Below the pieces are notes generated by a model that was not told the DNA's origin, made no database searches, and was given only the letters and a program-made list of their open reading frames with translations. Source: Sisyra terminalis (taxonomy: Eukaryota; Arthropoda; Insecta; Neuroptera; Sisyridae). Taken from it: 64,000 bases of DNA. Both the position numbers and the translations under genes were made by a program. The stretch covers positions 26,740,001 to 26,804,000 of the forward strand of contig OY292276.1 of assembly GCA_958496175.1 (NCBI GenBank). The letters run 5' to 3'. This document shows positions 41,305-62,834 of this stretch, piece after piece. Numbering within the stretch: position 1 is the first letter of the stretch; each line of letters opens with the position of its first letter.

Positions 41305-41510
41305 GGCCTCGAGGAAAACTGGGCTTTTTTAAAGATAGATACGTTTGTATGCAATGCAGTCGTTCATATAAGTGGAAATTTACTGCGATTCGGCACATAC
41401 GTTACGAATGTGGGGAAGCTCATTTTTCTTGTCCGTTATGCCATAAACGATTTAAGCAAAAATATTCTATGAAGAAACACATGGAAAGACACGTGATGGC
41501 ATGGTCTTGA
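41305..41510 (+). CDS. lola: lola 3' exon, zinc-finger pair 16
   Basis: The acceptor is a T-run ending TTTTGTAG; 68 residues. Lead GPRGKLGFFKDRYV; finger 1 CMQCSRSY ... HIRYEC; linker GEAHFS; finger 2 CPLCHKRF ... HMERH, with three residues between histidines. Tail VMAWS. It resembles the exon at 38219 closely enough (HIRYECG, RFKQK, KKH) to suggest duplication. Confidence 0.9.
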
Positions 41511-42913
41511 GATTAGATTTTAATTTTTTTTAACAATTTTTTTTATTACATAAACTACCCAGTTTACACATCTTTTAAAAACTATGTAAAATTTATATCA
41601 TGTAAAATTTTGGATGTGTAGTATGACATAAATTTTACATAATTCTTACTTACTGTGTTTATTGGTCATTTTTTTTCAACATATGATTCGAAAAAATGCG
41701 TTTTGATGAAACCCGAAAATAATTTACGGCACAAGTGCAGTAAAAATTTAAAGCTCATAACAGGCAATTAAACAATCTTTTTCGATAATTTTAAAAGGTA
41801 ACACATGTCATTGACCATAGTTTTAATACATAGTTAAATAATCCGTGTAGTAAAAATGGATACGATATAGTTTAGCTCCATGGGCAACTGCAAGTTATTT
41901 ATTTAAAGCTTAAATTTTAAACCATTCCATTATTTGATATTTAGTTTACAGTTACCAAAGAGATGATGTTTTGTTTAGAATGGAATAATGGGGTAGAGTG
42001 ATGCGGTATTATTTGAAAGTCTATAGACCCCAGTGAATTAGAAATGCACAGAATTGAATTATATACATGATGGGAGATTTTTTCTTAACTTATGAAGACT
42101 TGCCTGTCCCTATCTCTTCTTGTACCCTGCAAACGAAACGAATAATGAAATGGTTTAATACTTGAGTTTTATATATACAGCTTCCAGTTGTCCATGGGGC
42201 TTAACTATATCTTAGCGATTAAAATCATGTAGATATGACCTAATATTTGTTGTAATACCTACATTTGATTCGATTTTAATTTTTGTAAAATTTTATATAC
42301 CTCGAACCAGGTTGAAGGGAGTAATTAACCGAAAGGGAAATAATCCTTCATATGATTTTATTATATTTGAAAAACTTGAAACGGGTGCATTTATTGTACC
42401 TGTATTATATTATATTCGCCGATTTTGCTTGTAACACAGATTTTTTCAATCATTGTAAAAAAAATATGTATGAATCTCGTGAGACATTTTTCCGAAACTC
42501 GAATTTTGATCCAGCATAGTCTTTTTATCGGAAATCAAATCGCACTTGATACATAAATTAACTATAAAACCCTTACATGTTTTTTGAGATTTTTTTTTCG
42601 TTGTAATGTTTATATCAAATAAATAGAAAATAATTAACCATAATAAATTGAATGATTTTTAAAAGATTTTTTTTACTGTAAAAATATTCCTTCAATAACA
42701 AAATCCTTTCTAATAGGCTTTTTTAAACTTTCAATTAATGAAGAATTAATATTTGAAATTTAACAGTGCAAGTAAGAAAGTTGCAGTAGTATTTAAGTTT
42801 TCTTTACTTTTTTGTATCTAATTTCCAAATGAATATTCTAAGAATTTTATTTATTTAATGTGCACACGTTATAAATTTGTAAGCATCTAACTGACATATA
42901 ATTTTTGTTTTAG
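41511..42913. other. 1.4 kb inter-exon DNA
   Basis: Besides the DNA transposon at 41864 there is a small inverted pair, ATGTAAAATTTAT near 41584 and ATAAATTTTACAT near 41630. No exon seen. Confidence 0.45.
41864..42211. mobile_element. non-autonomous DNA transposon, about 350 bp
   Basis: The left end (GATATAGTTTAGCTCCATGG, then GCAACTG) and the right end (CAGTTGTCCATGGGGC, then TTAACTATATC) are inverted copies over roughly 27 bp. No frame is present inside. Confidence 0.55.
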
Positions 42914-43179
42914 GCATCATACCCACATTTGTAGGCAGCGAAATAAAATATGTATGTTTGCGATGTAATCGTTCATATTTACGGAAAAAAACTGCTGTTC
43001 GACATTATCGTTATGAATGCGGGGAGGCGAAATTTTCGTGTCCGGAATGCTTCAAGCTCTTCACACGAAAATATTCCTTGCATTGGCACATGGAAAATAC
43101 GTGCAAGGAATTACATAAACTAAATAAAATAAAAACGCTGAAAAAAAATATGAATGCTCGTCAGGGGCATAAGAAGTAA
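42914..43179 (+). CDS. lola: lola 3' exon, zinc-finger pair 17 (tandem duplicate A)
   Basis: The acceptor is TTTTTGTTTTAG; 88 residues. Lead GIIPTFVGSEIKYV; finger 1 CLRCNRSY ... HYRYEC; linker GEAKFS; finger 2 CPECFKLF ... HMENTC, ending in Cys. The tail is Lys-rich (KTLKKNMNARQGHKK). It is clearly paralogous to the next exon, 637 bp downstream. Confidence 0.9.
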
Positions 43180-43816
43180 AATCAAAGAATGTGACGAATA
43201 AAATTGACGAATGCAACCGTATATTAATTATTACTATTATTATTTTTTTTTTTGAAATTTAACTTGTTTTACAATTTAATCAACTATTTTTAATGCCTCA
43301 CATATGATTTTTTTTTAAAACGTTCCATTTTTGTTTTATTCCTTGTTGTAAGAAGAGGCACATACTTCAAGGCTAAAGACAATTTGCTTCAACATATTTA
43401 ATTTGTTGAATTTATATATTTTATTAAAAACGTAAAACAATATTTTTTTAAAGTACATGTAATTCTTGTAAAATTGTATTTTTATGAAAATAAAATCTAA
43501 TAAAAGTTGTTTAAAATTACCTACACTGAAAGGTTTATTTATATCATTATTTTCAGCTTTTAGCATTAAGTTAATTAAAATATAGAAGTATTATTTTGGA
43601 GTACAAAATGTTCATGTTGGAAAGTGGATTTAAGTTTTAAATTTTCAGTAAAACGTGCAATTATGATTTGAATACTTGAATTCCTTTAAATCCTGCAAAC
43701 ATAGAATTTAATTCTTTTCGAGTGCCTAGAGATATTTTTTTGTAATTTCAGTGTTATATTGTATTTATTTTCAGGAAATTGTTGATATTTTGTACTAATA
43801 AATTATATTTTTTTAG
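43180..43816. other. inter-exon DNA between the tandem duplicates
   Basis: AT-rich; no further exon seen. Confidence 0.5.
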
Positions 43817-44043
43817 GCTTTGTCGAAAAGATAATAGGTAATGAAATAAAGTACGTATGCGTGAGATGTAATCGTTCATACGCAAGAAAAAATACTGCAA
43901 CTCGGCATTATCGATATGAATGTGGGGGAAAAGCTGCATTTTCGTGTCCCGAATGCTTTAAGCCTTTCAATAGAAAATATTATTTGAAGTGGCACCTGGA
44001 AAAAACATGTAAACAAACGTATAAAGCACACAATAAATATTAG
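43817..44043 (+). CDS. lola: lola 3' exon, zinc-finger pair 18 (tandem duplicate B)
   Basis: The acceptor is a T-run ending TTTTTTTTAG; 75 residues. Lead GFVEKIIGNEIKYV; finger 1 CVRCNRSY ... HYRYEC; linker GGKAAFS, one residue longer than in its twin; finger 2 CPECFKPF ... HLEKTC. It shares EIKYVC, RCNRSY, HYRYECG, FSCPECFK and RKY with the exon at 42914, while the tail differs. Confidence 0.9.
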
Positions 44044-45600
44044 TTGAATAAAAATGTAATCAAAGTTATTGAATAAAAAGAAAATCCATCGCATTAGATA
44101 TAAGTTCAAAATAATATATTTCTTTTAATGTAAATAGTGCCAGTAATATTTATTCAAGTACACCAAAAATTATTTAAATCATATTTTGTATTTTTAGTAT
44201 TGACATTTTTATAGTTTAAATAAAAAAATAAAATATTTATTAAGTTTAACAAATTAAAAAAAAAATAGACTAATTCCTAATTGCTATGATTTTTATCTTT
44301 TTTAGCATACAAAAGGTTTTACTTTATTTATAACTTTGGGAAAAATGAAATATATTTCTATTTCATATCTTATATATTTTTTATTCATATTCATATCCGA
44401 GTTTTAATTTTGATCAAAGCAATCAAAGAACATATTATTTATGTCTTCATTTTTAGAAAACAATTTAATTTTCAAGTACGCTGATATTTCGTGTTAACAC
44501 GTTAGTCCTGTTTCTCATTTATACGTTTGCTATTCGAGTTTTATTCGAAGAATAGTCGTTAACTCATTCTACACCAAATATGCTGTAAAAACAGTTGGTG
44601 ACATAAGTTTGGATAGCATACAAATTAAAAGTCCAATGAATAGAAGATTATATTCGTTACTCTTCGGTGTACATATATTAAATAAGATGTAAATAAAATG
44701 AGTTGACTTTAAATAATACTTTTTAAATTGAAATGAAATAGTAAACTTATAATAGAGGAATAGACTTACGTGGTAAAAAATTCACTTAAAATAAAAATTT
44801 GTACATTTAGGTATGATTCCAATATTTATTTGAAAATTTTAGCTAAAAAAAATCAATTTCAGTCAAAAAAATCGCGATTTTATATTTGATTTCTCTACAT
44901 GGACGTTAGTACATGTGGGCAAGAGGAAAAAATTATCTTCTTTTAGAAATGTGAACTTTTTTATTTTGGTTATTTGAAATACATATATACATATATAAAA
45001 AATAAAACTTAGAAGCTATTGTTCTTTATTGTTCTTAAATAAATTAATTATGCCATATAATAGCTTAAAATATTAAAAATGCAATTCTTAAAAAAATTGC
45101 CTATAATAGAAACAATGAATTCAACATAGTTGGCACGGGTATACTTTATATCGATACAATCTGGCAATGTCTTATTCTATGTTTTTTTTATTCAATACTC
45201 GAATAAATCGATCATTTCGTATGACTGCTAGACTCATTTTAGTCGGCTTATTTGGGATTTGATTAAAAAATGAAATAGTCAATGAAACTTTATCTGATAG
45301 CATCGGTCTTAAGTATATCTTTATCAAACCACCTATAAGTGTTACCAAATTGCGTGTTAACACAATATATGAGCGTAATTTCAAAGTACCAATAAATTAT
45401 TTAACACCCTCTATTTCGTGCTCCAGTCTTTTGTCTTTGTTGCAATCGAACCACCCTCTTACTACTTGTTTCAATTAGAAACATTTGCTTTCGTTTTTTA
45501 TTTAAATTTTAATTTAGATATTACTTTGTCCAGTTCTAACTCACATATTATATAGGCTTTATTTTTTCCTATACTAATGTTTTATTAACATTTTTTATAG
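44044..45600. other. 1.6 kb inter-exon DNA with a possible transposase relic
   Basis: Mostly unassigned AT-rich sequence. On the minus strand, 45172-45384 is open and reads NQIPNKPTKMSLAV, loosely like the conserved QYxPNKPxKxGIK region of piggyBac transposases. This may be chance. Confidence 0.3.
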
Positions 45601-45866
45601 ATAAAAGTGAGGTATCCGAGCAAAACAACGTACTTCAAGATCATTTATACACTGCAAAATTAGACACTGCAAAAAAAAGGCTCACTAAAGAGTTGCATAT
45701 TTTACGTGCTGGAGGAAAAAGAAACTGTGTTGTATGTTCAAAGAATAACATTCCAAACTGGAAACGGCAGACATTGTATTTTTGTGACACCTGTGAAGAA
45801 AAGCCGAAGTTACACGTAGGTGACTGCTTCGAAAAATATCATACATCACAAAATTTAGAACTATAA
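45601..45866 (+). CDS. lola 3' exon encoding a piggyBac-type cysteine-rich domain
   Basis: The acceptor TTTTTTATAG is in the lola phase, and the exon encodes 88 residues to a TAA at 45864, with AATAAA at 45957. A charged lead of about 46 residues is followed by RNCVVCSKNN, KRQTLYFCDTC, EEKPKLHVGDCFEKYHTS. This is the layout of the C-terminal zinc-binding domain of piggyBac transposases: CxxC, RxTxYxCxxC, KPxL, CF-x2-YHT. One usual cysteine (KPxLC) is His here, still a possible ligand. The catalytic domain is absent. I infer exonisation of a transposase 3' end as a BTB partner module. The alternative is a transposon remnant with a fortuitous acceptor. Confidence 0.7.
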
Positions 45867-45970
45867 AGTTTTATAAAACTCATTAAATTGAAAGTAGAGA
45901 TTATGTTCAATTATGTTAAAAGTGCTAAATTCATCAATAGCATATCTACTTCTCGAATAAAAAGAAAAGT

Positions 45971-46281
45971 ATGGACGTAGCAAGGATTTTGATCAGAGGG
46001 ATAAGCAAAAAGGGTAATAATAGGTATATTTTAATAAAAATAAATAATGAAAAAAACATTTGAACATATTTACTTAAAATTATAGCAACATTAATCGAAG
46101 ATCTTCTCACAACCGACTGTTTACAGTTTTTTCTTTACATGCAGATGTACATTACTAGGGGTGCGTTCCATTAGATGTCTAGAATGCTCATAACATCCGA
46201 TGAATAAAAGGAAGTTGTGGGTACTTAGTGGATCACACCCACAAGTCTGTGCTCTCCTTGTTCTTCCTTAGCTACGTCCAT
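45971..46281. mobile_element. short DNA transposon with terminal inverted repeats
   Basis: ATGGACGTAGCAAGGA at the left end pairs with TCCTTAGCTACGTCCAT at the right end, allowing one extra base. The 310-bp inside is GC-richer and non-coding. It starts about 100 bp after the piggyBac-type exon. Confidence 0.55.
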
Positions 46282-47058
46282 TTAAAAAAAATAATAATAA
46301 TTTTCAATAAAATTTTCTCAAAAAAAAGAGGAAAATTTATTTTAAGATAATTTCTGGTGAATTCACAGCCTAAATATCTAATAGGTGGATGAAAAACATC
46401 CGTATTTGCGATAATATTTTTGAACAATTCTTGTAAGAATTAACGCTATCTATATAAGGATTTTAGTAGTTACGGTTTTTTTTTATATCAATCAAAAATG
46501 ATTACTTATTTGTTAAAATAAGCAAGTGTTAAAACATAAATTATAAGTAATTACAAATTACGAATTATAATTATCCATCCAATTTATAAAAAAAGTGTCT
46601 CAATTTGAAAAACCTCAATGATTTTTCAAGGAAATTTATAATTTTTGAGAAGTAGCGCGAAGCATACTCTAAATATAAGTAATTACATATTATAAAGAGA
46701 AAATAAGTGTTTTTTTTAAATATTTTTAGTAAGAATTTGAAACTATTACGTTATAAAAAGTTAGTTTTCAAATAAAAATATTTACAGGATTGTTACTTTG
46801 AAGAATATTTGACTTCTTTAACTAAACTACATGTCTAGTTAAAATTCAGTTCAACTTCTACTGTAAAATATTAATCGTTAAATAAACAACGTTTTTGAAA
46901 CGACTAATTTATTTTTTTGTTGTAAACTTTTTTTGCATTTTTGCTTTTACTAAAAATGCATCTATTTTTTTTAGTTTTATTTAAATAAGTTATCGGTGGT
47001 AATTGTGGGCAACATTTGGTCTAGATAATATTTTTAACAAAGATTTTTTTATTTTTAG
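46282..47058. other. inter-exon DNA, nothing recognised
   Basis: AT-rich; no exon seen. Confidence 0.5.
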
Positions 47059-47285
47059 GGTTCAAATGGATATTTGATGCATCCGGAAAAAATTTTTCAT
47101 GTGTACGATGTGGACGTTCTTATTCTACAAAAAATAACTTAATACGGCACGTACGATATGAATGTGGTGAAGCTAAATTTCCTTGTCCTATTTGTAACAA
47201 AAAATTTAAACAAAAGTGCTACATAACAATCCACGTGGCAAATGTACATAATATCAACTATCCACATAATCGTGAAAGCATTTGA
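47059..47285 (+). CDS. lola: lola 3' exon, zinc-finger pair 19
   Basis: The acceptor is TTTTTATTTTTAG; 75 residues. Lead GFKWIFDASGKNFS; finger 1 CVRCGRSY ... HVRYEC; linker GEAKFP; finger 2 CPICNKKF ... HVANVH; tail NINYPHNRESI. The GEAKF linker and FKQK block place it in the 38-47 kb subfamily, but its second finger is CCHH. Confidence 0.9.
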
Positions 47286-48779
47286 AAGTACAGTCTCTTA
47301 ATTTAATTGTCGATTAAGTTTTCTTAAAAAAAAGCTTTTAGTTTTGTTAAGCGATTTTGTATACTTACTTTGTTTAGTTTATAAATTATTATTTTTTATT
47401 ATCTTATTTTAAGTATTTTGAACATGTGTACCTGGTTAGAACTAAACGAACTTTCATTATGCTATAGTAACATAAATAAATATATAAAAAAAGTCGTTTG
47501 TATACTTTTATTTGTTATTTTATCATTTTAGTTTTACTGAATGAGTTTTGATATTCGTACAAACATTTTTATTTAAATTTGGTAAACTGAATTGTTTAAA
47601 GTAGTAATACCCTTTAGTCTATTACTATACGAGAGTTAGAAAATTTCAGTAAATCAAGATATAAGAACAAATTTGAATTTAATGATCACTAAATTCTATG
47701 TTTGTTCATTATTAACTCTTAATTAAATAAGTGATTCATATAGAGAGCGTTGTCAAAGAGTAAAAGAAGCAGATCCAGCAAGTTGTATTGAGCCCGAATG
47801 GGTAGTTGTCTGGAAGGAGGGATAAACACTTATATACTTGTATTTCACTTCGAAAATTCAATTAGAGCTATCTATTACATCCCCATTTTCTTCTAATCGG
47901 AAAAGGAGGGAAATTGCAAAGAAAGTTGAAAGAAAAATAAATCCTATTTCTTATGATTATAATACTCGTATTAATTTTGTTCAAATTGGTTTTATTGTGG
48001 TTATCTCTATATAATTTATCTTCGCTTTACTTGTCACCTTATTTTTCTCTATTTTATAAAATAGAGATGCACGTTTTTTTCCTACAATTTTTATTATAAA
48101 GACAAAATATTTAAAAACATTATTTTTGTCTGCTGATTTTTTTTCACAAGGCTTTCAATGCCCTTATATATATCTGTTAAATCATTTTAATTTATAAACT
48201 TATTGGAAAATTTTCCTGTTGAATTTTTATACCATATTGAGTTTTTATAAAACTAACGGTTTCTGGGCGAACCCGGAGGCCGTGTGAGGCCCGTCTTGAC
48301 TATTTTTCCGGCCCGCGAGATTCATCACACTTTTACAAAATCTATCATCATCATATATATTAAAATTGCTAATCCGTGAGACGTTTTGGTGCAGAAAAAA
48401 AGTTTCTTTCACTCCATCCGCATATATTCCATTCATAGCTTGCTCACCCACTCTTCTTCACCAAAATTGCATTTCGTTGTAGTTAAAGCAGCTGATCTCT
48501 GGCTGTAATACTTTCCGTTAGAATGGAGCCTAACGGGTTTTGCACTAGTTTAGTTTTATAATGGCTAAAATGGTGAAAACCAATGTATTAAAAATATCTA
48601 TAGTGTATATAAATTAAATATGGAGAATTGGAGATGTATAATTTTATATGTGACCTGTGTAGTTATAATGAATTTCCAAAGTGGCCCGGAATAACATTTA
48701 GGTTGATCATCTCTGGCTTAGTGCATATAAACATATATATATACTTATATATATATATATATACTTATATATATATATA

Positions 48780-48822
<43 letters not shown>

Positions 48823-50037
48823 AAACTTTATATATTCGGAATTGCTATGGGTCTTTAACCAGTTACAAATTTAGACTTACTATTAATAATAATGTTCCCT
48901 TATGGTACTTTTTTATAGTTCATTGTAAACGGGAGTAACAGTTCTATAATTCGCAAAAGTTCCTGCAAGACATATTAATAAATATTTAAGTTCAGATACG
49001 TGATCTGTTTACTGATCCTTATAGTCCAGAATGTATAAAATCTGCACACATACGCATAATGCATACATGTAAGCCACCAACTTGGGTAAAGAGACATACA
49101 TTTTGATTTTGTAACTGACTCTTTGAGTTAGGGTTGGGGAGCAATTTAAATTAATTTACCGTTATCCAATGATTGTTTAAAAGAAGGGAAATGGTGAGTT
49201 ATAAAAAAATACATATTTATAAATTTACCTATTTTCAAATAGGAGGACCACCTATAAATGCCATTAAGTCTTGATTGATGCAATAGGTGTTTAATTGTGG
49301 AGGACTATTAATTAAATTATCATTAAGATTCCAGCCATTTGACATACCAGTGTTAAGAAATAAACAAATCCGTTAACTAACAAGCGGGTAATTTTGTGAT
49401 CGTCTACTTTTGAACTATTCTCCAACTATTCCAACGATTCGTTAGTATAGTAACTACCAAAAAATATTACTAGAGATTGCCATGTCAAGTTTCAGCATTC
49501 GAGCTTTCGTCTGATCGCATTTATACATAATGCCAAAGATTTTAAACCAGCGACCTAGAATTATCATTAATTTAGGAATGCTACTGTTGATGGATGTTAA
49601 GAAGAAATTGACACAAAGTAACTATAAATAAAAACGATTAAAACAGTTAAAAATAAGATACTGTAAAGTGAAGTAATCCAGAAATATTTACCAATAAAAG
49701 TATAGGAAATAATAAAAAGTTTTTTTTTAAAAAACATATTTTAACATGATTATTTCCAATAAGTACATTTCCTAGTATGTACTTCTGCTTTTTGAATTCA
49801 ATAAAAGCCAGTTTTATACTTTACAGTTTCCTTTTTTTTCTAAATAATTTCCACATTATAGTTGACTTTTATCAGTAGATTTAACTTGAACGATTAATTT
49901 TACTACTTATTTCTTTTAACAATGTAGTTTAGTATTATACCTAATTTAGTCTATTTATTGTTTGTCTAACGAATTTAAAATATTAAACGTAAAAATTCAA
50001 TTATTATATTTTTTTGTTTATAAAAACATATTTTCAG
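47286..50037. other. 2.75 kb inter-exon DNA before the homeodomain cluster
   Basis: It holds the AT microsatellite at 48731 and a GC-richer patch at 48250-48500 (CCCGGAGGCCGTGTGAGGCC) that is open on the minus strand and looks like an inserted repeat, possibly with a B-box-like GGGTTCGCCC on that strand. No exon was recognised. Confidence 0.45.
48731..48819. repeat. AT microsatellite with ACTT interruptions
   Basis: TA runs are separated by regularly placed ACTTATA units, then end in a pure TA run. Confidence 0.9.
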
Positions 50038-50306
50038 GGTATTACTCTAGGCGTCACCGAATCATGTTTAGCTCAAGACAAGTTCAGACGATGGAAATGA
50101 GTTTTTTGGCAAGTAATTTTCAAACACCTACACAAATGCAAAGACTTGCTGCTATAACTGGATTAACGTACAAGCAAGTACAACAATGGTTTGTAGATCG
50201 ACGCCGGAAACAACGTGCTTTTGAGAAAAAAACAAACGGTCAAGAAAAAAGTTTCACGAATGCTATGCAACAACCTAATCTTAGACATACTCGTATAAGA
50301 TATTAA
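50038..50306 (+). CDS. lola 3' exon encoding homeodomain 1 (divergent)
   Basis: The acceptor CATATTTTCAG is in the lola phase; 89 residues, with AATAAA at 50353. The homeodomain covers about residues 4-63: basic N-arm YYSRRHRIMFS, helix 1 around RQVQTMEMSFL, helix 2 around MQRLAAITGL, helix 3 YKQVQQWFVDRRRKQR. Trp48 and Phe49 are kept, but the invariant Asn51 is Asp, which should weaken standard TAAT-type recognition. The tail is basic and disordered. It is paralogous to the exon 265 bp downstream. No zinc finger is present. Confidence 0.85.
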
Positions 50307-50571
50307 CAAGAGCAAATTACAAAAGTGGCGTTTATAAAAAAAATTTTTTCTTAATAAATTGCTTTTAATAAAAAATACAAAGCTTTTTAATTGCTCGTAT
50401 CCTTTTGGTTTAAAATAGGTGTCTAGCGATAAATTTTGGAGGTTTTCTTTGATTTTCAATGTCAGAGATGATCATTTATGCTTTACCTATGTATCTACAT
50501 TTATTAATTCTATAACGAAATTGAAATAATGGATTAATTCTATTTCATAAAACCTAAACAAATATTTCCAG

Positions 50572-50807
50572 GTCCATTTTTTAAACGCTCACGAAACTTT
50601 AGCTACGAACAAGTTCGAATACTGGAATCGAATTTTTTATCAAATATCTATCCCAGTCCTTCACAAATGGAAGAACTCGGTACAAGTATTGGTCTTTCAT
50701 ACAAACAAGTGCAACAGTGGTATGCAAATCAACGTCGTCGAAAATGTGCTAAAAGTCTTCGAGTTAAAAGAAGCAACAAGACGATCTTGGAGCATAATAC
50801 ACTTTAA
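50572..50807 (+). CDS. lola 3' exon encoding homeodomain 2
   Basis: The acceptor is AATATTTCCAG; 78 residues; AATAAA at 50889. N-arm FFKRSRNFS, helix 1 YEQVRILESNFL, helix 2 QMEELGTSIGL, helix 3 YKQVQQWYANQRRRK. Asn51 and Arg53 are present; position 49 is Tyr and 50 Ala. It shares QVxxxE, FL, QM, GLxYKQVQQW and RRRK with homeodomain 1, so the two look like a tandem duplication. The tail is basic and ends ILEHNTL. Confidence 0.85.
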
Positions 50808-51666
50808 CCAATCTAAAGGTGATAATATTATTTTACTACAAACTGTGAAAAAATGTATACAAATTTATTTTAAGTATTCATAAAATTTAATAAATATATA
50901 TATATACAGATATTTTTTTACTTATTAATACATATATTCCTATATAATTCTTAAGAATTTCCAATTTTATGTAAAGATTTTGGTGTTATTTTATAATAAT
51001 TTATATTGTGGATAGTATATACATATGTAGTAGAATTATTTTCGTAATGTTCATATAAGATTATTGAACAAAAATAACATATTTTTTTCAATGTTTATTT
51101 GAAATTACTATCTTATGAATAATTCATGGGATACGTACTATGAAAAATGATTTTTTGTAACAAAGTAATAAAAATCCTTATCAAATACCAATATTTTTTT
51201 ATCTTTTGTAATTTTAAAAATATACTTTAAGACATATTTTGCAAAAGTAAAAAAGATTATTAAAATATTATTTTTTATTAATCTAGCAAAAACAACTGTT
51301 TTTATTAATAAATAGAGTGAAAAACATAGTTGTGGGACGGTTAACTTAAGTTGCTTAAGTCGCTAACATAATTTAAAACTTTAAATACGAGCGTTAAAGA
51401 CTATTTATCTGAAGCTCGTTATTAAAATGCAATCTCTGTGCATATTTTATATTTCAGCTATAGTTTTGCTTGAAATATTAAAAACAGAGATTTTTACAAC
51501 TTTTAAAAATGTTTTACATATTTTTTTCTCAATAACACATTTAACTAAAAATTAACAGTTTTAAAAATTAACCGCTTCATATAACAATAATCGTTAGTTG
51601 TAAATTTTTGATAAAAACGAAATTTAATCTGTGCAATTGAAAATAAAAACTAATTATTATTTTCAG
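50808..51666. other. inter-exon DNA, nothing recognised
   Basis: AT-rich; no further exon seen between homeodomain exons 2 and 3. Confidence 0.5.
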
Positions 51667-51866
51667 GTTACTTAAGAAGCAGACGTAGATATACCTTCCA
51701 ACAAAGAAAAATTTTGATGGAGTTTTTCCAACGAAATAAATTCCCTAATTATTTAGAGAAACATGAAATGGCAATAGCGACACAGTTATCTTTCAAACAA
51801 GTGGAACAGTGGTTAAAAAATATGAGAAAAAGATTCAAAATTCGTAAAAACAAAAAGCGATATTAA
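51667..51866 (+). CDS. lola 3' exon encoding homeodomain 3
   Basis: The acceptor is TTATTTTCAG; 66 residues; AATAAA at 52003. The whole tail is essentially one homeodomain: N-arm YLRSRRRYTFQQ, helix 1 RKILMEFFQRNKFPN, helix 2 EKHEMAIATQL, helix 3 FKQVEQWLKNMRKRFKIRK. Trp48, Asn51 and Arg53 are kept; Phe49 is Leu and position 50 is Lys, a residue that alters base preference in known homeodomains. Confidence 0.85.
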
Positions 51867-52605
51867 TTTTTTTTGTATATTTTTTTTATATGTATGTATT
51901 TTATTTTTTGGACACTATGCATTTTGTTGTAATATGTTTGTCTAGCATTTACTTTGTTCATTAAATTATAGGAAAAAAATTATAAAATTGTTTTGTACAA
52001 TGAATAAATAACATTTTCTTAAAGAAATAAATTTCATTTTTAAAGTGTAAGTTTTCTTTAGTCAATACAAATGCGATGATTTAGTCCTATTTTTAATAAT
52101 CAAACAGTGGCAGTTCTTGGTGGTTGTTCTTTGCATTGCAGTAAAATAATAATGCTGAACCAATTGTTGATTCGTTGAGTCAACTGAATTCAGTGAATAT
52201 TCACTTCATTATTTTGTTCGTTGTTGAAATTTATGTGTTTAGGAAATAAAAAAATAAATATATTTATTATTTAAGATTTGTTAATCGAATAGAAAATAAT
52301 TATTGTTCTTTTTCAGAATTCTCAAAGAAATAACCTCGACTTACGTGCAAGAAAATACTGCTGTGATATTAATGTAATATTTTCAATGTTGCATTGTAAA
52401 TATATACATTATATATGCATGGGTTCGATAAAATACAATATGACCAAATATTGGAAAATATTCATTCTTAAAATGAAGATACCTAGATTTTTGAAGTTAA
52501 TGTATTGTTCTATATTTTTTTAGTAATGACATTGCTTACAAAAAGTAAAACTATTCATCAAACTTTTAAACTATAGTATCATTAATATTGTTATTTTTTT
52601 TTTAG
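51867..52605. other. inter-exon DNA, nothing recognised
   Basis: AT-rich 3' UTR and intron sequence. Confidence 0.5.
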
Positions 52606-52832
52606 ATTACAACAAATATTTTTGCAGATGTGGCAAAAAGTATACATTTAAAACAAGTTTACAACGGCATCTAAGGCTAGAATGCGGACAGCCTCCACGT
52701 TTCCGATGTTATATTTGCGATTTTCGGACGCATCGCAATGAAAATTTAAAAGCCCATCTATTTAGAATCCACGGTTTCGTAGCTGATTCACTTACTGAAG
52801 TCGTAGAATCAAAGTCACAATATTTGTATTAG
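52606..52832 (+). CDS. lola: lola 3' exon, zinc-finger pair 20, inside the homeodomain cluster
   Basis: The acceptor is a T-run ending TTTTTTTTAG; 75 residues. Finger 1 starts almost at once (DYNKYFCRCGKKY ... HLRLEC) and has only one residue between its first two cysteines, so its knuckle is compressed. Linker GQPPRFR; finger 2 CYICDFRT ... HLFRIH is normal. The tail GFVADSLTEVVESK is acidic. The next homeodomain exon's acceptor is 180 bp away. Confidence 0.82.
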
Positions 52833-53012
52833 TTGCTGTAATAGTATTGTAAATATATAATTTAAGTTAAAATATTAATTGTAGTTTTAATTTTTTCCTG
52901 TTTTGTTAGTGTAAGGAATGTTTGGGATGATTGATATGCTATATTTTTTTAAACAAATTTTATTTGTTGAAAATAATGAAAAATCAAACTCACGCAAAAG
53001 TTATTCTTCAAG

Positions 53013-53215
53013 GGTTCTACGTCACACGTACACGAATGCTATTAACGCTAGAACAACGCCAAATCCTCGAAAAGGCTTATGAGCATCAACAATTTCCACC
53101 GAGCGAAATTTACGCCCAGATTTCTTCGATAACAAATCTGCCAGTATATAAAGTACAAAAATGGTTCCAAAACAAACGTTTCAAATCTCGAAGAAATGCT
53201 GAACTTCGTATATAA
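53013..53215 (+). CDS. lola 3' exon encoding homeodomain 4 (canonical)
   Basis: The acceptor is TTATTCTTCAAG, weaker than most; 67 residues; AATAAA at 53271. N-arm FYVTRTRMLLT, helix 1 LEQRQILEKAYEHQQFP, helix 2 EIYAQISSITNL, helix 3 YKVQKWFQNKRFKSRR. The WFQNKR signature with Gln50 and Asn51 is that of a standard homeodomain. An upstream ATG at 52975 is in frame but lies before the acceptor. Confidence 0.87.
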
Positions 53216-53429
53216 AGAGTGTTCTGCAACGTTTAAGAAATGTAAACATTTTAAATTATTTTTCTTTCTAAATAAATGTTTGCATGTTGTGCATTGTAAA
53301 TTTGTATTTCCATTGAAAAAATCTTAATTCTCAAATCAAATTGATCTGTTCTGCCTATTCATTCACCTTGCTGTTATTTTTTTTTAATTTTTATTTTTTT
53401 TTTGCAATAACCAAACTTTATTTTTTCAG

Positions 53430-53659
53430 GACTGAATCTACGGTATCGTGTTCCATTTTTGTATGCGCAAATAAAAAAATTAGAAGCTTGTTTTGAAATA
53501 AATAATTTTCCAAATCGTGAACAAATTGAAGATTTAGCTAAACTCCTTGATACAACTCCAAGTAAAGTTAAAGTTTGGTTTCAAAATCGGCGTATGAAAC
53601 AAAAAAGGCAAAGAGTTTTTAAATCAGTTGCATCAAATACAGAAAGATACTCATCGTAA
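53430..53659 (+). CDS. lola 3' exon encoding homeodomain 5 (canonical)
   Basis: The acceptor is TTTATTTTTTCAG; 76 residues. N-arm LNLRYRVPFL, helix 1 QIKKLEACFEINNFPNREQ, helix 2 IEDLAKLLDT, helix 3 SKVKVWFQNRRMKQKRQR. All landmark residues (Leu16, Phe20, Trp48, Phe49, Gln50, Asn51, Arg53) are present, the most orthodox of the five. It is 214 bp after homeodomain 4. The tail FKSVASNTERYSS is Ser-rich. Confidence 0.88.
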
Positions 53660-54724
53660 ATTGAACAATTTTCTAATGTACAAAAATTTTTTGCTTTTCA
53701 CTCCGATTTTACAATGTTAACGTTTTATGTACCTAAATGCTCCAAAAATGATGATTTGATTATATTTAAAAATTTATAAAATTTAACACTTATAAAGAAA
53801 TTGTAATGCGAAATTCTCATATTGAATTTCAAAATCGTATATATACCTACCTTTGAATTTTATATGATTTTGTTTTTAGATATCAACATTTTGGATTTAT
53901 TTTGAAATAACTATAGAAAATTCGTTAGTAAAATATGACCAAAGTTTGTGACCATTAGTATATTATGTTAATTATACTCCAACAATTGGATAACGCATAG
54001 CGAGCGTATAAACGCATATAAAAAAGTTATTATTTGTGCATAGTTTTAATGAGAATTTTACCTTCCTCAGGTGTTTAATACTAATAATTGCCCTTGGGGT
54101 TTTAAAGTACGGTTACCAATATAAACAGAATAAATATATTAGTAATCGATTTAATGGTTTAACTTTGTTATAAACAGAGTGCTGACTTTGAGGATGGAAC
54201 CAAAAACGAAACTGAAATATTGATTTTTACAGAGTCTGAGTTGAAGCAATTGGTTCCAGCTTCTAGCAATTTCGTATTAAATATATTAACGTGAAAAATG
54301 TTTAGAAAATTGCTTTTTATAAGTGAATTATAAAAATTTAGAGTGGAGTTGGCGCCAAAACTACAGTTAAGCATTAACTTCGGAACCAAACTTGGAACCA
54401 TAGTCCAAAAATAATTGAACCCGAAGCCTAAACTAATTTGAGCCAGCATCCTAAATTAACGACAAAGCAATAATTTAACATTCACAATTTCGTTAAAATA
54501 ATTATTAAACTTATTTTTCAAAGCAGTAATTAATAATTGAAAATAAAAGATATTATTTTTTATTTGAAGAATAATTAATATAAAATTAGTTTTTTTCGCT
54601 GACTTTGAACAGTTATACTGTTTATACAGTAGAATATAAAATATATTGTAGTCTTATTTATGTAATATAACTAACAAAAGTAAATCATAAATATTTTGAA
54701 CAAAAGTCCAAACAATTGTACTTT
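53660..54724. other. inter-exon DNA after the homeodomain cluster
   Basis: A GC-richer patch at 54175-54445 with repeated GGAACCA/TGGTTCC words may be an old repeat. No exon recognised. Confidence 0.4.
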
Positions 54725-54852
54725 TGACGTATTGCCCAAATACGTATTTCGATTGCTCCGTAACTGCTATATAATGAGCAATCCAATACAACTTGATGAC
54801 CACTGAAAAAGATTGCTTGGTAATTGAAGTACGTGTCTGGGCAATACGTTAA
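54725..54852. mobile_element. small MITE
   Basis: ACGTATTGCCCAAATACGTA at the left end is inverted at the right as TACGTGTCTGGGCAATACGT with two mismatches; length is about 128 bp. Confidence 0.6.
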
Positions 54853-56545
54853 AAATACATTTGTTTGAGCTTTGTTCACATTTTTGTTTGTAGTTTTTTT
54901 TGGTAAATTATAATACATAAATAAGACCGCAATATGTGTTATATATTGTATAAACACTAATTAATAGTAGATGATAAAAATCAGATTTGAATTCATTATT
55001 TTAGTAATTAATATAATAGTTCTAAAGAGTCACTTTATTTTATTTTTCATTGTTTCAAGTAATTAGAACTGGATTTAAAAAAGTTTTGATCGTTTAATTG
55101 TTGTTTATAATGTTATCATGAATGATAAATTATTGAAATATTTGTTAATATGTTGAATTAATAATTATTTGTGCCCTTCAAGATAAAATGCTACGAATAA
55201 CGACAGTTATAAGTATTAAGCACTTGAGAAATGCACAGTTTTCGCCGAAACGTTGTGTTATGCAGAAATAACTGTTTTAATGCTATCCGTCTTTTTGTTT
55301 CGTTGTCTAATTATTACAAGAAATTCCATTTTTGGGTTGATATTATTACTCACCTGATTTCGAAAAATTAATAACGTACATATATCATTGAACTTTATGT
55401 TATTTGTATCTTTATATTAATTTCTTATATATTAATTGAAACGAAGGATTAAAGGTAGGGAATATTGAGTCAAATTTTTTACTTTCATGCTGATGGAAGA
55501 CCTTCAATTTTATGTTGACAAGGGTGTTGTTGTCGCTATCGAATTAAACGATTTTAACGAGAGATTGTATTTATATAAATGACATTGAACCATTTTTACT
55601 ATGTTGCTATAATTCGTAAAAAAATGTATATAATTTTCTGTTGAGAAAAAAAATGGTATTCGGTTATCCGATTGCGCAACAATATTCGAAGTCGCCAAAC
55701 TTATGTAATCATCATTATGTTATTTAAAATCAAAATTGTTTTTTGGAGTTTTTCCTTACTTTATTTTTATTTTCAAAATTTTTTCCTTATAAATAAATTC
55801 ACAGTAAGTTTCTTATAAAATTACTCGAAAACAAATTTATTAATTAATTATAGATTACTGTATCATTTTTTTTTGCTGAATTGTTCGAATAAATTTATTA
55901 AAAGTGTAGATTAGCGTAGAATAAGTTTTGTAAAAAGATAATTGAATGAAGGATATTTGAATGAATAACAAGTAATTTAATATATACCATTAATATATAC
56001 ATACAATTACCTCAAAAAAATACAAAATTTTAATAGTAATATTTTAGAATTAACCAGAAGCTTATAACGACAAATGCATAGTTCTAATACGCTACATCTG
56101 TTTAATTCTTTTATTATTGTTATAAAGCGTGATACGAACTTTTTTCAATAGTAACATTGCAGTTATTGTTAAATATATTATAATATGCCATAGTTCTTAA
56201 ATTTTAAATTTATAGTTTTTCTTTTTATGTTAGATTTTTTTATATTCATGTTAAATTGAGTCAAAATAACTTTAAATATTTAAACATTTGTACCATCTGT
56301 ATAATATTATAATTTATTACCATTAAAAAATAAAATATAATTTTAAACTGAATAAATTGTTTCGATTTGAAATTACAGTTCATATAATATTATATCTGTA
56401 GCAAAAATTATTATTTTTATATTGCATTATTTTACTTTTCTACTTAAAATTTTCTTTAATATCTTTTTGGTAAATACAACTATATTGGTTGGTGGTTAAT
56501 GTGTAATTATTAGCAATAATTGTAATGATAAATTTTTGTTTTTAG
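54853..56545. other. 1.7 kb inter-exon DNA, nothing recognised
   Basis: AT-rich; a CpG-containing stretch at 55195-55310 resembles ends of repeats but has no clear structure. Confidence 0.45.
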
Positions 56546-56742
56546 GATCTAAGCCATGGGTTTGCAATAGTTGTAAAAAAGTCTATTGTTTTCGAACTAG
56601 TCTCATCAAACATATGAAACACGAATGTGGAGGTCGAAAGGAATTTAAATGTTTTGCTTGCGGAAAAGGATTCACTCAGAAGCACAATATGACAACTCAT
56701 TTATACCGAATTCACAACGTTATACTTTCAAAATATAAATGA
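56546..56742 (+). CDS. lola: lola 3' exon, zinc-finger pair 21
   Basis: The acceptor is TTTTTGTTTTTAG; 65 residues. Very short lead GSKPWV; finger 1 CNSCKKVY ... HMKHEC; linker GGRKEFK; finger 2 CFACGKGF ... HLYRIH; tail NVILSKYK. All ligands intact. Confidence 0.9.
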
Positions 56743-57527
56743 AATGCTCCAGGAGACTATGCTATGAATAAAAACATTCAAATAACATTTTAAAAAAATA
56801 AGTAATATTAAAAAATAGTGTACACCGTCCAAAGATAAAATAGTAAATAAGAAATTACGTGTTAATTTTGTTAACTATTAATATTTATATCAATACGACA
56901 TAAGTAAGTGTATTAAGTTTATTTCCATTTGAAAAATGTTTAAATTATATTCTCAAGAATATTTGAGACATTCTCATTTTTAAACTTTATGTTGAATTTT
57001 AAGAATTTTAACTATAACTATACTATAACCAGTTATTAAGTATACATTAATTTTATACAGTATATTATATATACTTTCGTAATTAATAAACCATTATTGC
57101 TGTATTTTTTCAACCGTTTAAGAACATTAAGAAAAAAATTTAAATATCAATATAATAATAGGTAAACGATTATGTATTATATGTCGGCGAAGCAAACAAG
57201 ACAGTATGTATATAAACACCTATGTGTAAGTGAAAAAAAAATATGTGGGTGAAATCCAAGTGTAATAATCATTGTCTCAAATATGAATTAGCGATTGTGA
57301 TCATTCGTTTCAATTGTTCTTTTGATTTCATTAAATTTACAATTTTTGCCACGTGTTAATTGCATCAGTATTGTGCTGGGAATATATCACGGATAGTTAC
57401 TAGTATAGTATAACGTTTGAGGAAGTTAAAAAATATTGTCTTTGTCTATATTTTTCTTTCCCTATTATTAGAAACGAATATAATTTTCGAAATTATTTAA
57501 TATTAAACTTATACAACTGTTTATAAT

Positions 57528-58008
57528 CAGAGCTGTCAGAAAAAAGTGTCTTAGTTACTTAGTACCTTAGATACTTTTTAAAGGGAACTTTATCTCGTAA
57601 CTTAAAACGTATCTTAGATACCAAAAAGTAACTTGGGTGCTCAGAGATCAGACACAGAGCTTTTGAGCTTTGTTTTGGTATACAAGATTCAATTTATTCC
57701 TCTTATATTAATCTTCTATTGTTTTTAAAGTGCGTTGTGTTTATAGGAAATTTGGCATAAATACTTTCCTTTTTCCTAAATTAATAAACATAAGAAGTAT
57801 AATATCTGATTACCTAACAACTTTACCTAATCCGTTATAAAATTTGGTACGTACATATTATTTAAGTATCTCAGAAAGTAACTTAAAATAAGTATTTAAG
57901 TTCCTTTTTTTAAGAGTAATTATATATCCAATGTAACTTGGGATACTTTTTAATAAAGTAACTTATCTAATATCTAGATACATTCCCAAAATATCTTTGA
58001 CAGCTCTG
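57528..58008. mobile_element. hAT-like non-autonomous element
   Basis: The ends CAGAGCTGTCA and TGACAGCTCTG are perfect 11-bp inverted repeats. Internal words such as CTTAGTTACTTAG recur on both sides. AAT precedes and follows the element; a full 8-bp target duplication is not preserved. Confidence 0.6.
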
Positions 58009-59411
58009 AATCAATCTGATATAAATTCCAAAATTTATATTGGCTCAGTACATAAACTAAGCAGTGTTGTAAATATATTTGAACACCAAATCCAGAAACA
58101 GTAATGATATACTGAAAGGAAGATAATATTCACATGATTCTTGTAACCAATGTATAAATTACTTTAGATTTGAATTCGTCTTTTAATATTTTACTCTTTT
58201 TTTTCCTAGTTTTTAATTTTTTTATTCAATGAATTTTTTCAACTTTTGAGTTTTCCATTTAATTTAAGTTATTTATTTTGAAAATAACCCGAATCTAGTT
58301 CCTAATTGTTTTGTTTAATACAAGTGCATATAACGGTGCAAGAAGTAAGTAAAATTATAATCAACCCTTTTACATAGTGGCACTTATAACACAATGTTTA
58401 TAAAATACAAAACCATACCCCCCTCTTTAATGTAGTATTTTTATACTATGTTTTTTGTTTTTATAAAATCTTATTAACCATAAGTATGATACTTTAGTGT
58501 CCTAAAGGTGTAATTTTTATTTTATCGAATAACGCGAAACAAATTCAACATCTTTATATTTTTCATATATTCCCTTTTCACTACGTTATAATGCATTGTG
58601 AACATTGTTTTTCAAATAACAATGTAGAAGTGATTGCGAAGACAGCACCAATATATTAGATGCTAATGAATTGAGTCTTAATTATTGAAATAGTTTCAGA
58701 ATGTTGTTTTATATTAAAATAATTCTATGAAAAATTTAAACTAAATTTAAAGCAACAAACTTTTACGGTTAAAATCAAAAACTGTTTTTGTAATTAAGTT
58801 ATTAAAGAAGTTTTTAAGTTTCGTGGCCTTAAACATAACTCGAATGTGATGTATTTATAATGAACATTGTAATAAAGTAGTTAATTTACGAACATTTCTT
58901 ATAAAAGACTAAGCTTACTTGTTCATAGAAAAAAAGTTAAATTATCTCCTCTTAAAGCTATTCATTTTAAAATAAAACTATGAGAGTACATATTAATTAA
59001 ATCTGTGTATTAAAATATTTTTTAAAATAAATTATTTAAAATGTTGATAAATATATTATTTATTTCCGAGTCACAATTATAAATTAATGAATAATAATTT
59101 ATGTCCTATGACTCAATTTCTTTATTACGACGCGTTTCAACAGTTTTTGGTTGTCATCATCAGGTAATTAAAATTAATTTCATTACCTGATGATGACAAC
59201 CAAAAACTGTTGAAACGCGTTGTAATAAAGAAGAAATTGAGTCATAGGACATATATTATTGTTATTCATTGATTTCTTTAAAATGTTCTAAATATAGCAT
59301 TTAAAAATATATATTTTGTATTATTTCAATAATAAATAGTTTATACTGGTTTGTTGTTATTTAATGTAGAATTGTTTATATAATTAATATATTGTAAATT
59401 TTTTCTTCTAG
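58009..59411. other. 1.4 kb inter-exon DNA
   Basis: Apart from the palindrome at 59075-59275, no feature was recognised. Confidence 0.45.
59075..59275. repeat. long near-perfect palindrome (fold-back element)
   Basis: Arms of about 70 bp or more meet around 59170-59180. GTTTCAACAGTTTTTGGTTG on the left returns as CAACCAAAAACTGTTGAAAC on the right, with one 3-bp insertion (AAGAAG) and few mismatches. The homology extends, weaker, about 25 bp beyond both CCTATGA/TCATAGG borders. It lies 140 bp upstream of a finger exon acceptor. Confidence 0.8.
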
Positions 59412-59659
59412 GTAATGCAAACTATGATATGACAGATCATGGACCTCGATTTTATTGTTCTGTTTGTCCGGCTAGTTATAAATTGAAAAAGCATTTAACT
59501 TACCATATACGACATACTTGCGGAAAAGCTATTCAATGCCCATATTGCTACAAAATTATACGTGGAGTTGCTACAATCAATCGTCACGTAGAAAAATATT
59601 GTAAAGTGGCTCGTGAAACTTTCTATGAAACAGCTAATAACTGTACCACTGGAAATTGA
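59412..59659 (+). CDS. lola: lola 3' exon, zinc-finger pair 22
   Basis: The acceptor is TTTTTTCTTCTAG; 82 residues. Lead GNANYDMTDHGPRFY; finger 1 CSVCPASY ... HIRHTC; the linker is only GKAIQ; finger 2 CPYCYKII ... HVEKYC ends in Cys. The 22-residue tail (ARETFYETANNC) has no known motif. Confidence 0.88.
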
Positions 59660-60425
59660 TAAAAATACATTTCATGGTGAATAATTATAATACTCTTTGT
59701 ATTTTTCCAAAATAATATTCTTATTTATAAAACTAAAAACATTCATTTTTTTTAGTTTAAGAAGTAACAATTTCAGCAATATGAAATAAGGTATCGAGAA
59801 GTTAGAAAAAATAATTAATTATCGTTACCTTATCCATAACAAATATAATTGAATAATTTTTAAAAAGGTAATTTTACATGTAAATTTATATATAAATAAA
59901 TTATTTATTTTTTAAATAATAGTATTAAATATTAGAAAAATTTAATAACATCAAAATAGTTTCATTAAAAACAACAGTATTAAACATACTTCTAAGTAAG
60001 TCATATATTTGATGGTTTTTTCTCAATAAATGACTTCAACTGTAATAAAGATAAGGAAACCAAACCTTATGTAAGGTACTTTCTTGAAATAAAACACATT
60101 TCCTTAAAGTATTTGTTAACATTGATAATTTTGTTTTTCTTAAATATATCACAATTAATACCATCATAGTTAAAATAATGTCTATATCACATATATGACG
60201 AAATATTTGTATAACACGTTAATTAATTCTTTCCAAATAATGCAAATGGAGCTGAAATGGGTTGAAAACGCTGAAACGGAACTGAAACGGTGAAAAAATG
60301 GGAATAAAAGATACCATACAAAATAGCTTTTGATTTTTAATTTTTGTATTAAAGTCATTAACGAAGCTGTGTGTTTTTTTTTTTTAATTAAAATGTTAAC
60401 TAATTCTATATTTTTTTCTTTTTAG
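59660..60425. other. inter-exon DNA, nothing recognised
   Basis: AT-rich; no exon seen. Confidence 0.5.
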
Positions 60426-60508
60426 AACAAAAAGGGATTGAAAATGCTTTCAAGAACTATCTTCTTGAACCTGAATATTTAAAAAAAGACGAAGAGGCTA
60501 AAATCTAA
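60426..60508 (+). CDS. candidate lola 3' exon without fingers, possibly frameshifted
   Basis: The acceptor TTTTCTTTTTAG is in the lola phase. It gives EQKGIENAFKNYLLEPEYL and eight more residues, then a stop inside an imperfect 18-bp tandem repeat (AAAGAGGCTAAAATCT and AAAGAGGCTAATCTG). A second frame, 60526-60747, follows in another phase and looks coding. The repeat may have introduced a frameshift that cuts a longer finger-less tail. Confidence 0.4.
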
Positions 60509-60525
60509 AAAAGAGGCTAATCTGT

Positions 60526-60747
60526 ATGAAAAATGAAGAATGGAAACTTAAACAAGAAAGTATTGATCAATTTAATTTTGATTGTCCTCAAAACCAAGGA
60601 AACATAAATTTGGATAATTCATGCAACGAAAATATGGGCAGTTATAAATCTATATATTGGGGCAATAAACCAAAACCTTTACCTATTCACTCTATTCATA
60701 TGAGACCACGACTCAATGGATCGGACTATAGGTTTGTCAATGAGTAA
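60526..60747 (+). CDS. coding-like frame following the short exon
   Basis: It encodes 73 residues from ATG (MKNEEWKLKQESIDQF) through YKSIYWGNKPKPLP to RPRLNGSDYRFVNE. The composition is balanced and unlike chance AT-rich frames. It is offset by +2 from the exon at 60426, and no phase-1 acceptor lies directly before it. An AATAAA follows at 60830. I do not recognise the family. It is best read as the shifted continuation of the exon at 60426. Confidence 0.35.
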   Translation: MKNEEWKLKQESIDQFNFDCPQNQGNINLDNSCNENMGSYKSIYWGNKPKPLPIHSIHMRPRLNGSDYRFVNE

Positions 60748-61673
60748 AAATGATGAATCGTACGCGTATCCACTTAATTTAAAATACTTGCAATATTATT
60801 TTACTAATTTATGTGATTGAAATGTAAAAAATAAAAAGATATCTTGGATACTAAATTTTCGTCTAAACCTTTTTGTCATTTGATTTTTTAAAGAGGTATA
60901 TTGAAACTACAAGTAATTTAGTAGCCATAATGTATTAATATTTTTTGTCTTCGTATATGTAACATACCATACATTTACGAAGACAATTGATTGATTTCCG
61001 TAATCGTCCCGTTTGTTTAAAATTGTGACTAATTGAGTACAGCAGTGGGTATAGTATTTTTCCTCTACTATACCCAATTATTATCAAACAGAAATAGATT
61101 CATATTGGGTTTAATTCTTAATGATTTTCATATTATTCAAGCGAAATATTTTTATTTCGATGCTATATCTGTTCAGAATATATTACCATTACAATTTATC
61201 ATATTTATAGTTATAATAAAATAAAACTTAATCATAAAAAAATAATTCTGAAGTTCGCATTTTTTTGAATGAAAAGAGATAAGAAAATAAAAATTACGAA
61301 AATGTTAGAAAATATGTTAAACACATGGGCATTTTTTCTTTTGACAACATTCACAAAATAGAATATCCTGAAATGTTTAAAAAGTAGTATAGATAATTTT
61401 GCCCAAACAAAATAAATTTGCCCAGTAATACTAACGTCTTTTAAATACCAAAAATAATTTATTTTTCTAAATATAATTTCCAGTGTATCGATAGATATAT
61501 CTAAAAATGATCTACTATAACGGTAAATAACGTAAATAAATATCTTGTAAAAAAATATTTTTAATTAAACTGGGGGTTTCTATCGTGCTTATCAACTCCA
61601 CAAGCTTACTTTTTTTGCTCACCAATTCAAGTTTTTACCAAGCAAAATTATATTGTGACAATTTAGTAAGGCT
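60748..61673. other. inter-exon DNA, nothing recognised
   Basis: AT-rich; an imperfect inverted pair GGGTATAGTA/TACTATACCC near 61047-61077 is the only structure. Confidence 0.45.
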
Positions 61674-61866
61674 TAAGCAGGCCGTTCATGCTTCGACTTG
61701 CAGTCCAACTAGTGGTCCGACTTTCGAAGTTGGATCTAAAGTCGGACCGTGAATGGTGTTGTTGGAAGTTGGATGTCTAGCGGATCATTTAGGCGATCCA
61801 ACTAGAATATCCTACTAGTAGTCCGACTAGTTGGACTGCAAGTCGGAGCGTGAATGACCTGCTTTA
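61674..61866. mobile_element. GC-richer MITE with 45-bp inverted repeats
   Basis: The left arm AAGCAGGCCGTTCATGCTTC, continuing GACTTGCAGTCCAACTAGT, is inverted at the right end with about six mismatches. The 193-bp element is much richer in G and C than its surroundings and has no frame. Confidence 0.75.
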
Positions 61867-62185
61867 CTTTAAATGTTTCTTTTCAATTACATAGTAATTA
61901 GTAAATATCGAGATATAGTATAGTAATATAGTAAATATTTACTATATTAGATATAGTAAATTATCTATCATTTACATTTCTCATATTTATAACTGACATT
62001 AACATTATATTTAAAATTATAAAAACAAAATATATTATTCACTGTAACATTATCGTTCATAAGATAACATGAAACTAAATAAATAGACTTATAAGCGTAA
62101 GTATTGCAGCCACAACGAATTTACTTTGTGAGTATCTATATAGCTATTTTAAGTTAATGCTTATTCAATTTATGTATTCCTTTAG

Positions 62186-62423
62186 AGTTCGGATGGTTTT
62201 GGATACGCCTGTGTAATGGGCAATCATAATTTTTCGTTTTATTAAATTTTTAGAGTTCAATGCCCAAAGTGTGATAAAACTTATTCCATAATAATAAAAA
62301 ATAAGACGACGTTTACGACTAGAATGTGGAATTTCACCTAAATATCAATGTCCGTTTTGTCCTACAAAGTGTAAAAGAAACAATCATCTCAAGGGGCATA
62401 TATTTTTAAGACATTCACAATAA
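62186..62423 (+). pseudogene. lola: lola zinc-finger exon with frameshift
   Basis: Acceptors at 62184-62185 and 62254-62255 both fit the lola phase. After the second one the frame reads VQCPKCDKTYSIII and then shifts; a stop follows at 62339. The adjacent frame continues the pattern with RLRLECG, CPFCPTKC and HIFLRHSQ to TAA at 62421. The shift lies in the A-rich stretch 62295-62310, and the finger 1 His is Arg even in the shifted frame. The upper acceptor opens EFGWFWIR, like a normal lead, before a stop. I judge it inactive. Confidence 0.6.
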
Positions 62424-62834
62424 AAGTGGCGTCAAGAACTAACAAAAATAATTTAAATACTTATAAAATTTGGAGATTTTAAAAACTTAAGACACCGATA
62501 AGCCAGCAAATGTTATTAATTAGTACAGTAAGGATGTTACATTATACGATATATTCATATTTTTTTTAATTTTAATTGGCTGTTTCGATAAAATACTTTG
62601 TTTATAAATATTAAATAAACCAGAGGTTTTAATATATATTTAATATATGAATTGATGTACCTATTTGAAATAAAAAACGTTAAATTCTCAAAATAATATG
62701 TGTATTTCTATATTTTCAATTTTTTGTTGTTACATGTGTTTGAATTATATTCTAAAATTACACTTTTTTTAATTTTGTTATGTTGATGAAGAACTATAAT
62801 ATACCCATTTATTCAATATTTGTTTTTATTCTAG
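62424..62834. other. inter-exon DNA, nothing recognised
   Basis: AT-rich; no exon seen. Confidence 0.5.

Follow-up and report, generated by a model that had tools for sequence, protein, structure and literature searches.

Homeodomain exons as probable alternative ends of the lola locus in Sisyra terminalis (Neuroptera)

The lola locus of Drosophila has been reported to produce at least 20 isoforms by means of cis- and trans-splicing (PMC1947980). In the available text of a survey of arthropod TTK-type BTB proteins, 17 of 20 Drosophila isoforms have C2H2 zinc fingers, and the known tails are either C2H2/C2HC or none (PMC11426971). Larger sets have been described in Hymenoptera, with more than 180 alternates in Nasonia and 58 in Apis, and no homeodomain tails are named in the available text of that report (PMC5000498). 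In psq and mod(mdg4), a TTK-type BTB is likewise combined with a DNA-binding fold that is not a zinc finger. These folds, the Pipsqueak helix-turn-helix (HTH) and FLYWCH, lie outside the homeodomain family; C2H2, HTH and FLYWCH are the major DNA-interaction domains in the part of the survey available, and words starting with "homeo" are absent from its main text (PMC11426971). Neither a BTB-homeodomain protein nor a lola isoform with a homeodomain was found described in the literature searched, which left preprints and most subscription papers outside. Here we describe the lola locus of Sisyra terminalis in a stretch of 64,000 nucleotides (assembly GCA_958496175.1, contig OY292276.1, here C3:26,740,001-26,804,000; hereafter the window) from a genome of 376.6 Mb in 11 contigs. 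As in Drosophila and other insects, the locus combines a TTK-type BTB core, a hub exon and an array of alternative terminal exons, and as in Nasonia and Apis this array is very large and follows a single hub exon. It differs in that five of its candidate tails are homeodomains, and these exons (HD1 to HD5) very probably serve as alternative lola terminal exons and yield BTB-homeodomain Lola proteins.

In this insect, the part common to the isoforms is encoded by three forward-strand exons. The first (8581..8754) is an open reading frame with the start codon and the first part of the BTB, and it is closed by the donor GAG/GTAATT (slashes mark exon boundaries). The second (8819..9557) carries the remaining BTB and the linker between the acceptor TTTTACAG/ and the donor CAAG/GTTTGT, and the third is the hub exon (9616..9699), which ends as CACAAG/GTAAGAAA with its donor at 9699/9700 (CACAAG/GTAAGA). 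One G is ambiguous between the second and third exons (9557/9616 or 9558/9617), the product being identical. Together the three exons amount to 332 codons and one base, so that the last codon is split as G/NN. Their joined translation matches lola of the lacewing Chrysoperla carnea: among the best 120 matches listed, the top ones are 23 isoform representatives from one C. carnea locus, 20 of them named lola, which reach at most 87% core identity across four fifths of the query, and beetle lola ranks after them at roughly 50-60%. The hub end QEAVGQHRDAQ is identical in all 23 listed representatives. At the position of the FxLRWN motif that marks TTK-type BTB domains (PMC11426971, as far as its text is available), the Sisyra protein reads FCLKWN, with K replacing R, and the same FCLKWN is carried by two Chrysoperla records that were inspected.

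The five homeodomain exons, all on the forward strand, are HD1 (50038..50306), HD2 (50572..50807), HD3 (51667..51866), HD4 (53013..53215) and HD5 (53430..53659). A sequence-only reading of this DNA had placed an open homeodomain frame at each of these positions in the exact lola phase, and both statements hold. All five exceed the Pfam PF00046 cut-off of 22.9 bits (45.9, 51.6, 32.7, 49.8 and 66.8 bits from HD1 to HD5), and a whole-genome profile search recovers them among 107 homeodomain matches (HD5 66.4, HD2 51.1, HD4 48.9, HD1 45.8 and HD3 31.6 bits). In every one the first codon is a phase-1 G/NN glycine that fits the hub end at 9699 and leads directly into the homeodomain, and the frame stays open through the domain. 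Splice acceptors were scored with a matrix derived from the acceptors of 21 zinc-finger exons and ranked against the 2,700 AGs of the window. Of the five acceptors, which that reading had called pyrimidine-rich, those of HD1, HD3 and HD5 (ranks 98.8%, 98.2% and 98.3%, the top 2%) and of HD2 (94%, the top 6%) are good, but not that of HD4, which has a weak AAG with a score of 0.91, above 84% of the AGs (84.4%) and under 20 of the 21 zinc-finger acceptors, each scored with itself left out. The poly(A) signals once put forward as support were dropped: an AATAAA does lie within 300 nt past the stop of four of the five exons, but the same is true of 55.6% of random positions in this AT-rich DNA, so its presence has no evidential value.

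With regard to the domain itself, residues are numbered by the Antennapedia convention. Trp48 is present in all five domains in the alignment, as claimed, although the claimed helix 3 pattern is broken in HD1, where Asn51 is replaced by Asp; HD2, HD3, HD4 and HD5 keep Asn51, and HD5 is the most canonical, with the motif WFQNRR. Position 50 is Gln in HD4 and HD5 and Lys in HD3. Asn51 is an important homeodomain contact with DNA, and the Gln50 and Lys50 classes favour TAAT-type sites that differ in their flanks. To judge from residue 51, HD1 may be atypical in its DNA binding. Its fold is that of a three-helix homeodomain in the AlphaFold model, which was built from a five-sequence alignment and gave block means of 90-96 for the predicted local distance difference test (pLDDT) at residues 11-60 and 79.4 overall; the best Foldseek matches of this model were CDX2, NKX2-5 and BARHL2 (E 1.8e-4 and up).

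The same exons could in principle form a small homeobox cluster that lies within lola but has promoters and 5' exons of its own, the match in phase being a coincidence. Long introns often harbour nested genes, and HD4 would suit such a cluster, as it has an in-frame ATG upstream at 52976 in addition to its weak acceptor. HD1, HD2, HD3 and HD5, on the other hand, cannot be one-exon genes, because no in-frame ATG precedes the homeodomain and the first internal Met lies inside it; the earlier statement that no exon has a start codon of its own is thus right for four of the five and wrong for HD4. The shared lola phase of all five exons also speaks against a nested cluster, as does the position of the exons. 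Downstream of the hub, 102 frames follow an AG in hub phase, end in a stop and span 40 residues or more, and a pattern scan gave 24 among them with a zinc-finger pattern. One of them is a C2H2 terminal exon between HD3 and HD4 (52606..52832, forward strand), recovered by the profile search and the pattern scan, and the 23 others form the further terminal-exon array at 12553..63246 on the same strand; two of the 24 (stops 27870 and 63246) have no acceptor that passes the filter. Three are clear orthologs of Chrysoperla isoform tails, at 20525-20758 (68%), 27646-27861 (69%) and 63070-63231 (80%). The NCBI models of Chrysoperla join the lola hub to the orthologs of exons that flank the homeodomain cluster upstream and downstream, and the cluster therefore lies within the range of exons used by lola. 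Together with an intronless gene on another contig, which joins a lola core to a homeodomain of this kind at an exon boundary, these observations leave the nested cluster very improbable, in agreement with the lower rank that the sequence-only reading had given it.

This intronless gene provides the strongest link between the hub and a homeodomain. Among 62 genome homeodomains outside lola that were compared, the closest relative of HD1/HD2 is a match on the contig labelled C4, and this domain is in turn closer to HD1/HD2 than to the 61 others. It belongs to an intronless frame of 361 codons (C4:52,782,115-52,783,200; 1916-3001 on the reverse strand of the extracted region L072), or 349 codons counted from the first lola-like Met, in which a lola BTB (90.3 bits), a diverged linker and hub, and a homeodomain (48.3 bits, above the PF00046 cut-off) follow one another. 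The three introns of the lola coding region are absent from it and all three junctions are contiguous. In reverse-complement coordinates of L072, bases 2037-2209 align with 8581-8753 of the window (75% DNA identity) and bases 2229-2394 with 8837-9002 (77%). The junction of the first two exons (8754/8819) is thus contiguous in DNA register, and from these two BTB registers it follows that the 64-base intron after 8754 was exactly removed in the copy. The junction of the second and third exons is contiguous in the protein alignment, in less conserved sequence. At the third junction the hub end ACAAG is common to lola and the C4 gene, and the alignment continues without a gap, the next C4 base falling on 50572, where HD2 begins, and the codon phase being unchanged; further on, bases 2886-3006 align with 50607-50727 of HD2 (72% over 121 bp). 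In their best-aligned DNA the two halves have diverged to a similar extent (75% and 77% for the BTB, 72% for the HD2 part).

The most plausible source of the C4 gene is a spliced lola mRNA of the BTB-homeodomain kind, of which it would be a processed retrogene. Over 120 aligned bases its tail is 70% identical to HD2, 62.5% to HD1 and 47.5-52% to HD3-HD5, and the protein tree groups its homeodomain with HD1 (support 99/76); its parent would be HD1, HD2 or their ancestor or close relative, DNA favouring HD2 and the protein tree HD1. The proportions of nonsynonymous (pN) and synonymous (pS) differences are 0.111 and 0.856 between C4 and lola in the BTB part, and 0.375 and 0.600 between C4 and HD2 in the tail; on sequence grounds, the frame is intact and under protein-level constraint. 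Since the intronless copy keeps the in-phase exon junction, it points to hub-to-homeodomain splicing of the HD1/HD2 type, whose role as a lola tail is well supported by this comparison. Within 500 bases past the C4 stop, inspection by eye showed an extended but imperfect inverted repeat, which may represent a small transposon.

A second line of evidence comes from beetles, which share the Neuropteroidea with lacewings. In the Colorado potato beetle species Leptinotarsa decemlineata, lola isoform X11 (P0035, a gene model in the nr protein database) has a BTB of 98.0 bits and a homeodomain of 54.0 bits, and its hub ends in ...GAHRDSQ. Like the Sisyra homeodomain isoforms it combines a BTB with PF00046, and unlike them it has a longer linker before the homeodomain. 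It was recovered with the whole HD5 isoform as query: this protein search gave 5,969 matches among 7,983 candidates scored, and P0035 was the one match with PF00046 among the best 120. The proposal of BTB-homeodomain Lola isoforms thus finds support in the intronless C4 copy and in the beetle model, and the accompanying remark that no described isoform of this kind was known agrees with the literature searched; the protein database does contain P0035. A single clade of P0035 with the five Sisyra homeodomains is neither established nor rejected (approximately unbiased test, p-AU 0.192), and no clear grouping emerges. Other beetle lola isoforms (P0052, P0057 and P0099) carry a DUF4806 tail according to precomputed domains, verified for P0099, which is another lola tail without zinc fingers.

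Several observations weigh against reading all five exons as lola tails, beginning with the acceptor and upstream ATG of HD4. A homeodomain isoform occurs in none of the 23 Chrysoperla representatives listed. The HD2 tail, searched against proteins as a region of the joined isoform, returned no candidate, and the P0035 tail found itself alone among 35 candidates. DNA binding by HD1 and by the C4 protein, which has Thr at position 51 in the alignment, is doubtful in view of the missing Asn51. The five homeodomains are 22.5-42.5% identical to one another over 40 aligned residues, and their single origin is neither proven nor rejected (p-AU 0.369) by a tree of 57 columns, which are too few. Finally, the C4 linker is weakly conserved (42% identity overall, with 62 gaps in 393 columns), the hub matches in 42 of 77 bases, the entire tail in 140 of 228 against HD2 and the first 60 bases past the junction at 57%, and the exact hub/HD2 junction therefore rests on weakly conserved bases; neither a poly(A) tract nor a target-site duplication was seen by eye in the 300 nt before and the 500 nt after the C4 gene.

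The 57% identity past the junction and the missing poly(A) tract and target-site duplication would suit a different history of the C4 gene, in which a retrocopy of the lola core alone became fused with a neighbouring, pre-existing homeodomain, the likeness to HD1/HD2 being due to convergence or to a later copy into lola. Nevertheless, old retrocopies usually lose the poly(A) tract and the target-site duplication, and a fusion of this kind would have to account for the ACAAG hub end followed by an in-phase register without gaps from the very start of HD2, for a homeodomain nearer to HD1/HD2 than to the 61 others, and for the similar divergence of both halves. We consider this history highly improbable, and the retrogene reading is kept in what follows.

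A more serious alternative is that the working lola isoform is of the HD1/HD2 type alone and that one or more of HD3, HD4 and HD5 are either relics or parts of a different transcript. The retrogene matches this type alone, HD4 has its weak acceptor, and HD3, HD4 and HD5 form long branches in the tree. The pool examined comprised 69 of the 107 genome homeodomain matches (64 in 60 regions and the five of lola). A first tree had 68 rows, with 62 genome homeodomains outside lola, the five of lola and the one of the beetle, two of region L066 being omitted; the second, which shows these long branches and gave the p-AU values, had 56 rows after 12 rows of less than 50 residues were omitted. Relics are difficult to reconcile, on the other hand, with frames that are all open through the homeodomain, with pN below pS in all ten pairs of homeodomain exons and with HD5 as the most canonical domain (66.8 bits), and this alternative is unlikely, if appreciably less so than the two above. 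For HD3 and HD5, phase, acceptor and homology give a good probability that they are lola tails; HD4 is the weakest case. We infer present-day use of all five exons, beyond the HD1/HD2 type, and the five presumably arose by exon duplication. Among the other homeodomains of the genome, four lie in a single frame of 1,096 codons (C3:42,331,583-42,334,327, region L037), which is perhaps zfh2/ZFHX-like.

If the five exons are used as proposed, the hub donor at 9699 would be joined to a single terminal exon each time, through cis- or trans-splicing of the kind known from Drosophila lola, and BTB-homeodomain products would accompany the usual BTB-zinc-finger Lola proteins. Such a product would have about 400 residues, with the BTB, a probably disordered linker and the homeodomain near the C-terminus; the homeodomain would bind DNA while the BTB assembles the subunit with other Lola isoforms. 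Mixed complexes of BTB-homeodomain and zinc-finger isoforms would be expected because the Drosophila LOLA BTB assembles into hexamers and engages other BTB domains of the TTK type, according to the survey text available (PMC11426971). In this way a shared oligomerisation domain might bring together two unrelated DNA-binding folds from one locus. The combination of BTB and homeodomain would then be a new architecture obtained by alternative splicing, in five versions per locus, and an array of alternative terminal exons would be able to gain a new DNA-binding fold, beyond diversifying an old one. The intronless C4 copy makes the idea testable, as it is a single-locus BTB-homeodomain gene open to knock-down or expression separately from lola. 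A broader proposal, which we offer tentatively and rate at somewhat less than even, is that lola of lacewings and their kin has acted as a hub of domain capture: a homeodomain was taken in and duplicated to five, a transposase zinc ribbon was added, and one BTB-homeodomain product was exported as an intronless gene, the oligomeric BTB mixing homeodomain and zinc-finger subunits for composite DNA recognition. The beetle isoform would then reflect either an ancient condition shared within Neuropteroidea or another, second capture event.

The zinc ribbon of this proposal lies in the frame 45601-45866 (forward strand; acceptor 45601 or 45556), which is one of the 24 frames with a zinc-finger pattern. 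It is in lola phase, resembles a terminal exon and matches zf-Tnp_2 with 27.1 bits (cut-off 24), presumably the C-terminal domain of piggyBac-type transposases; it is possibly a second captured domain of the lola array. There are 15 other zf-Tnp_2 matches in the genome, many of them interrupted by stops, and one (region L070) is near a frame of 285 codons that resembles a piggyBac transposase by eye. Finally, just upstream of lola, a second BTB exon of similar general type was recognised by eye at 4584-4949 on the reverse strand, and it probably belongs to a neighbouring BTB gene.

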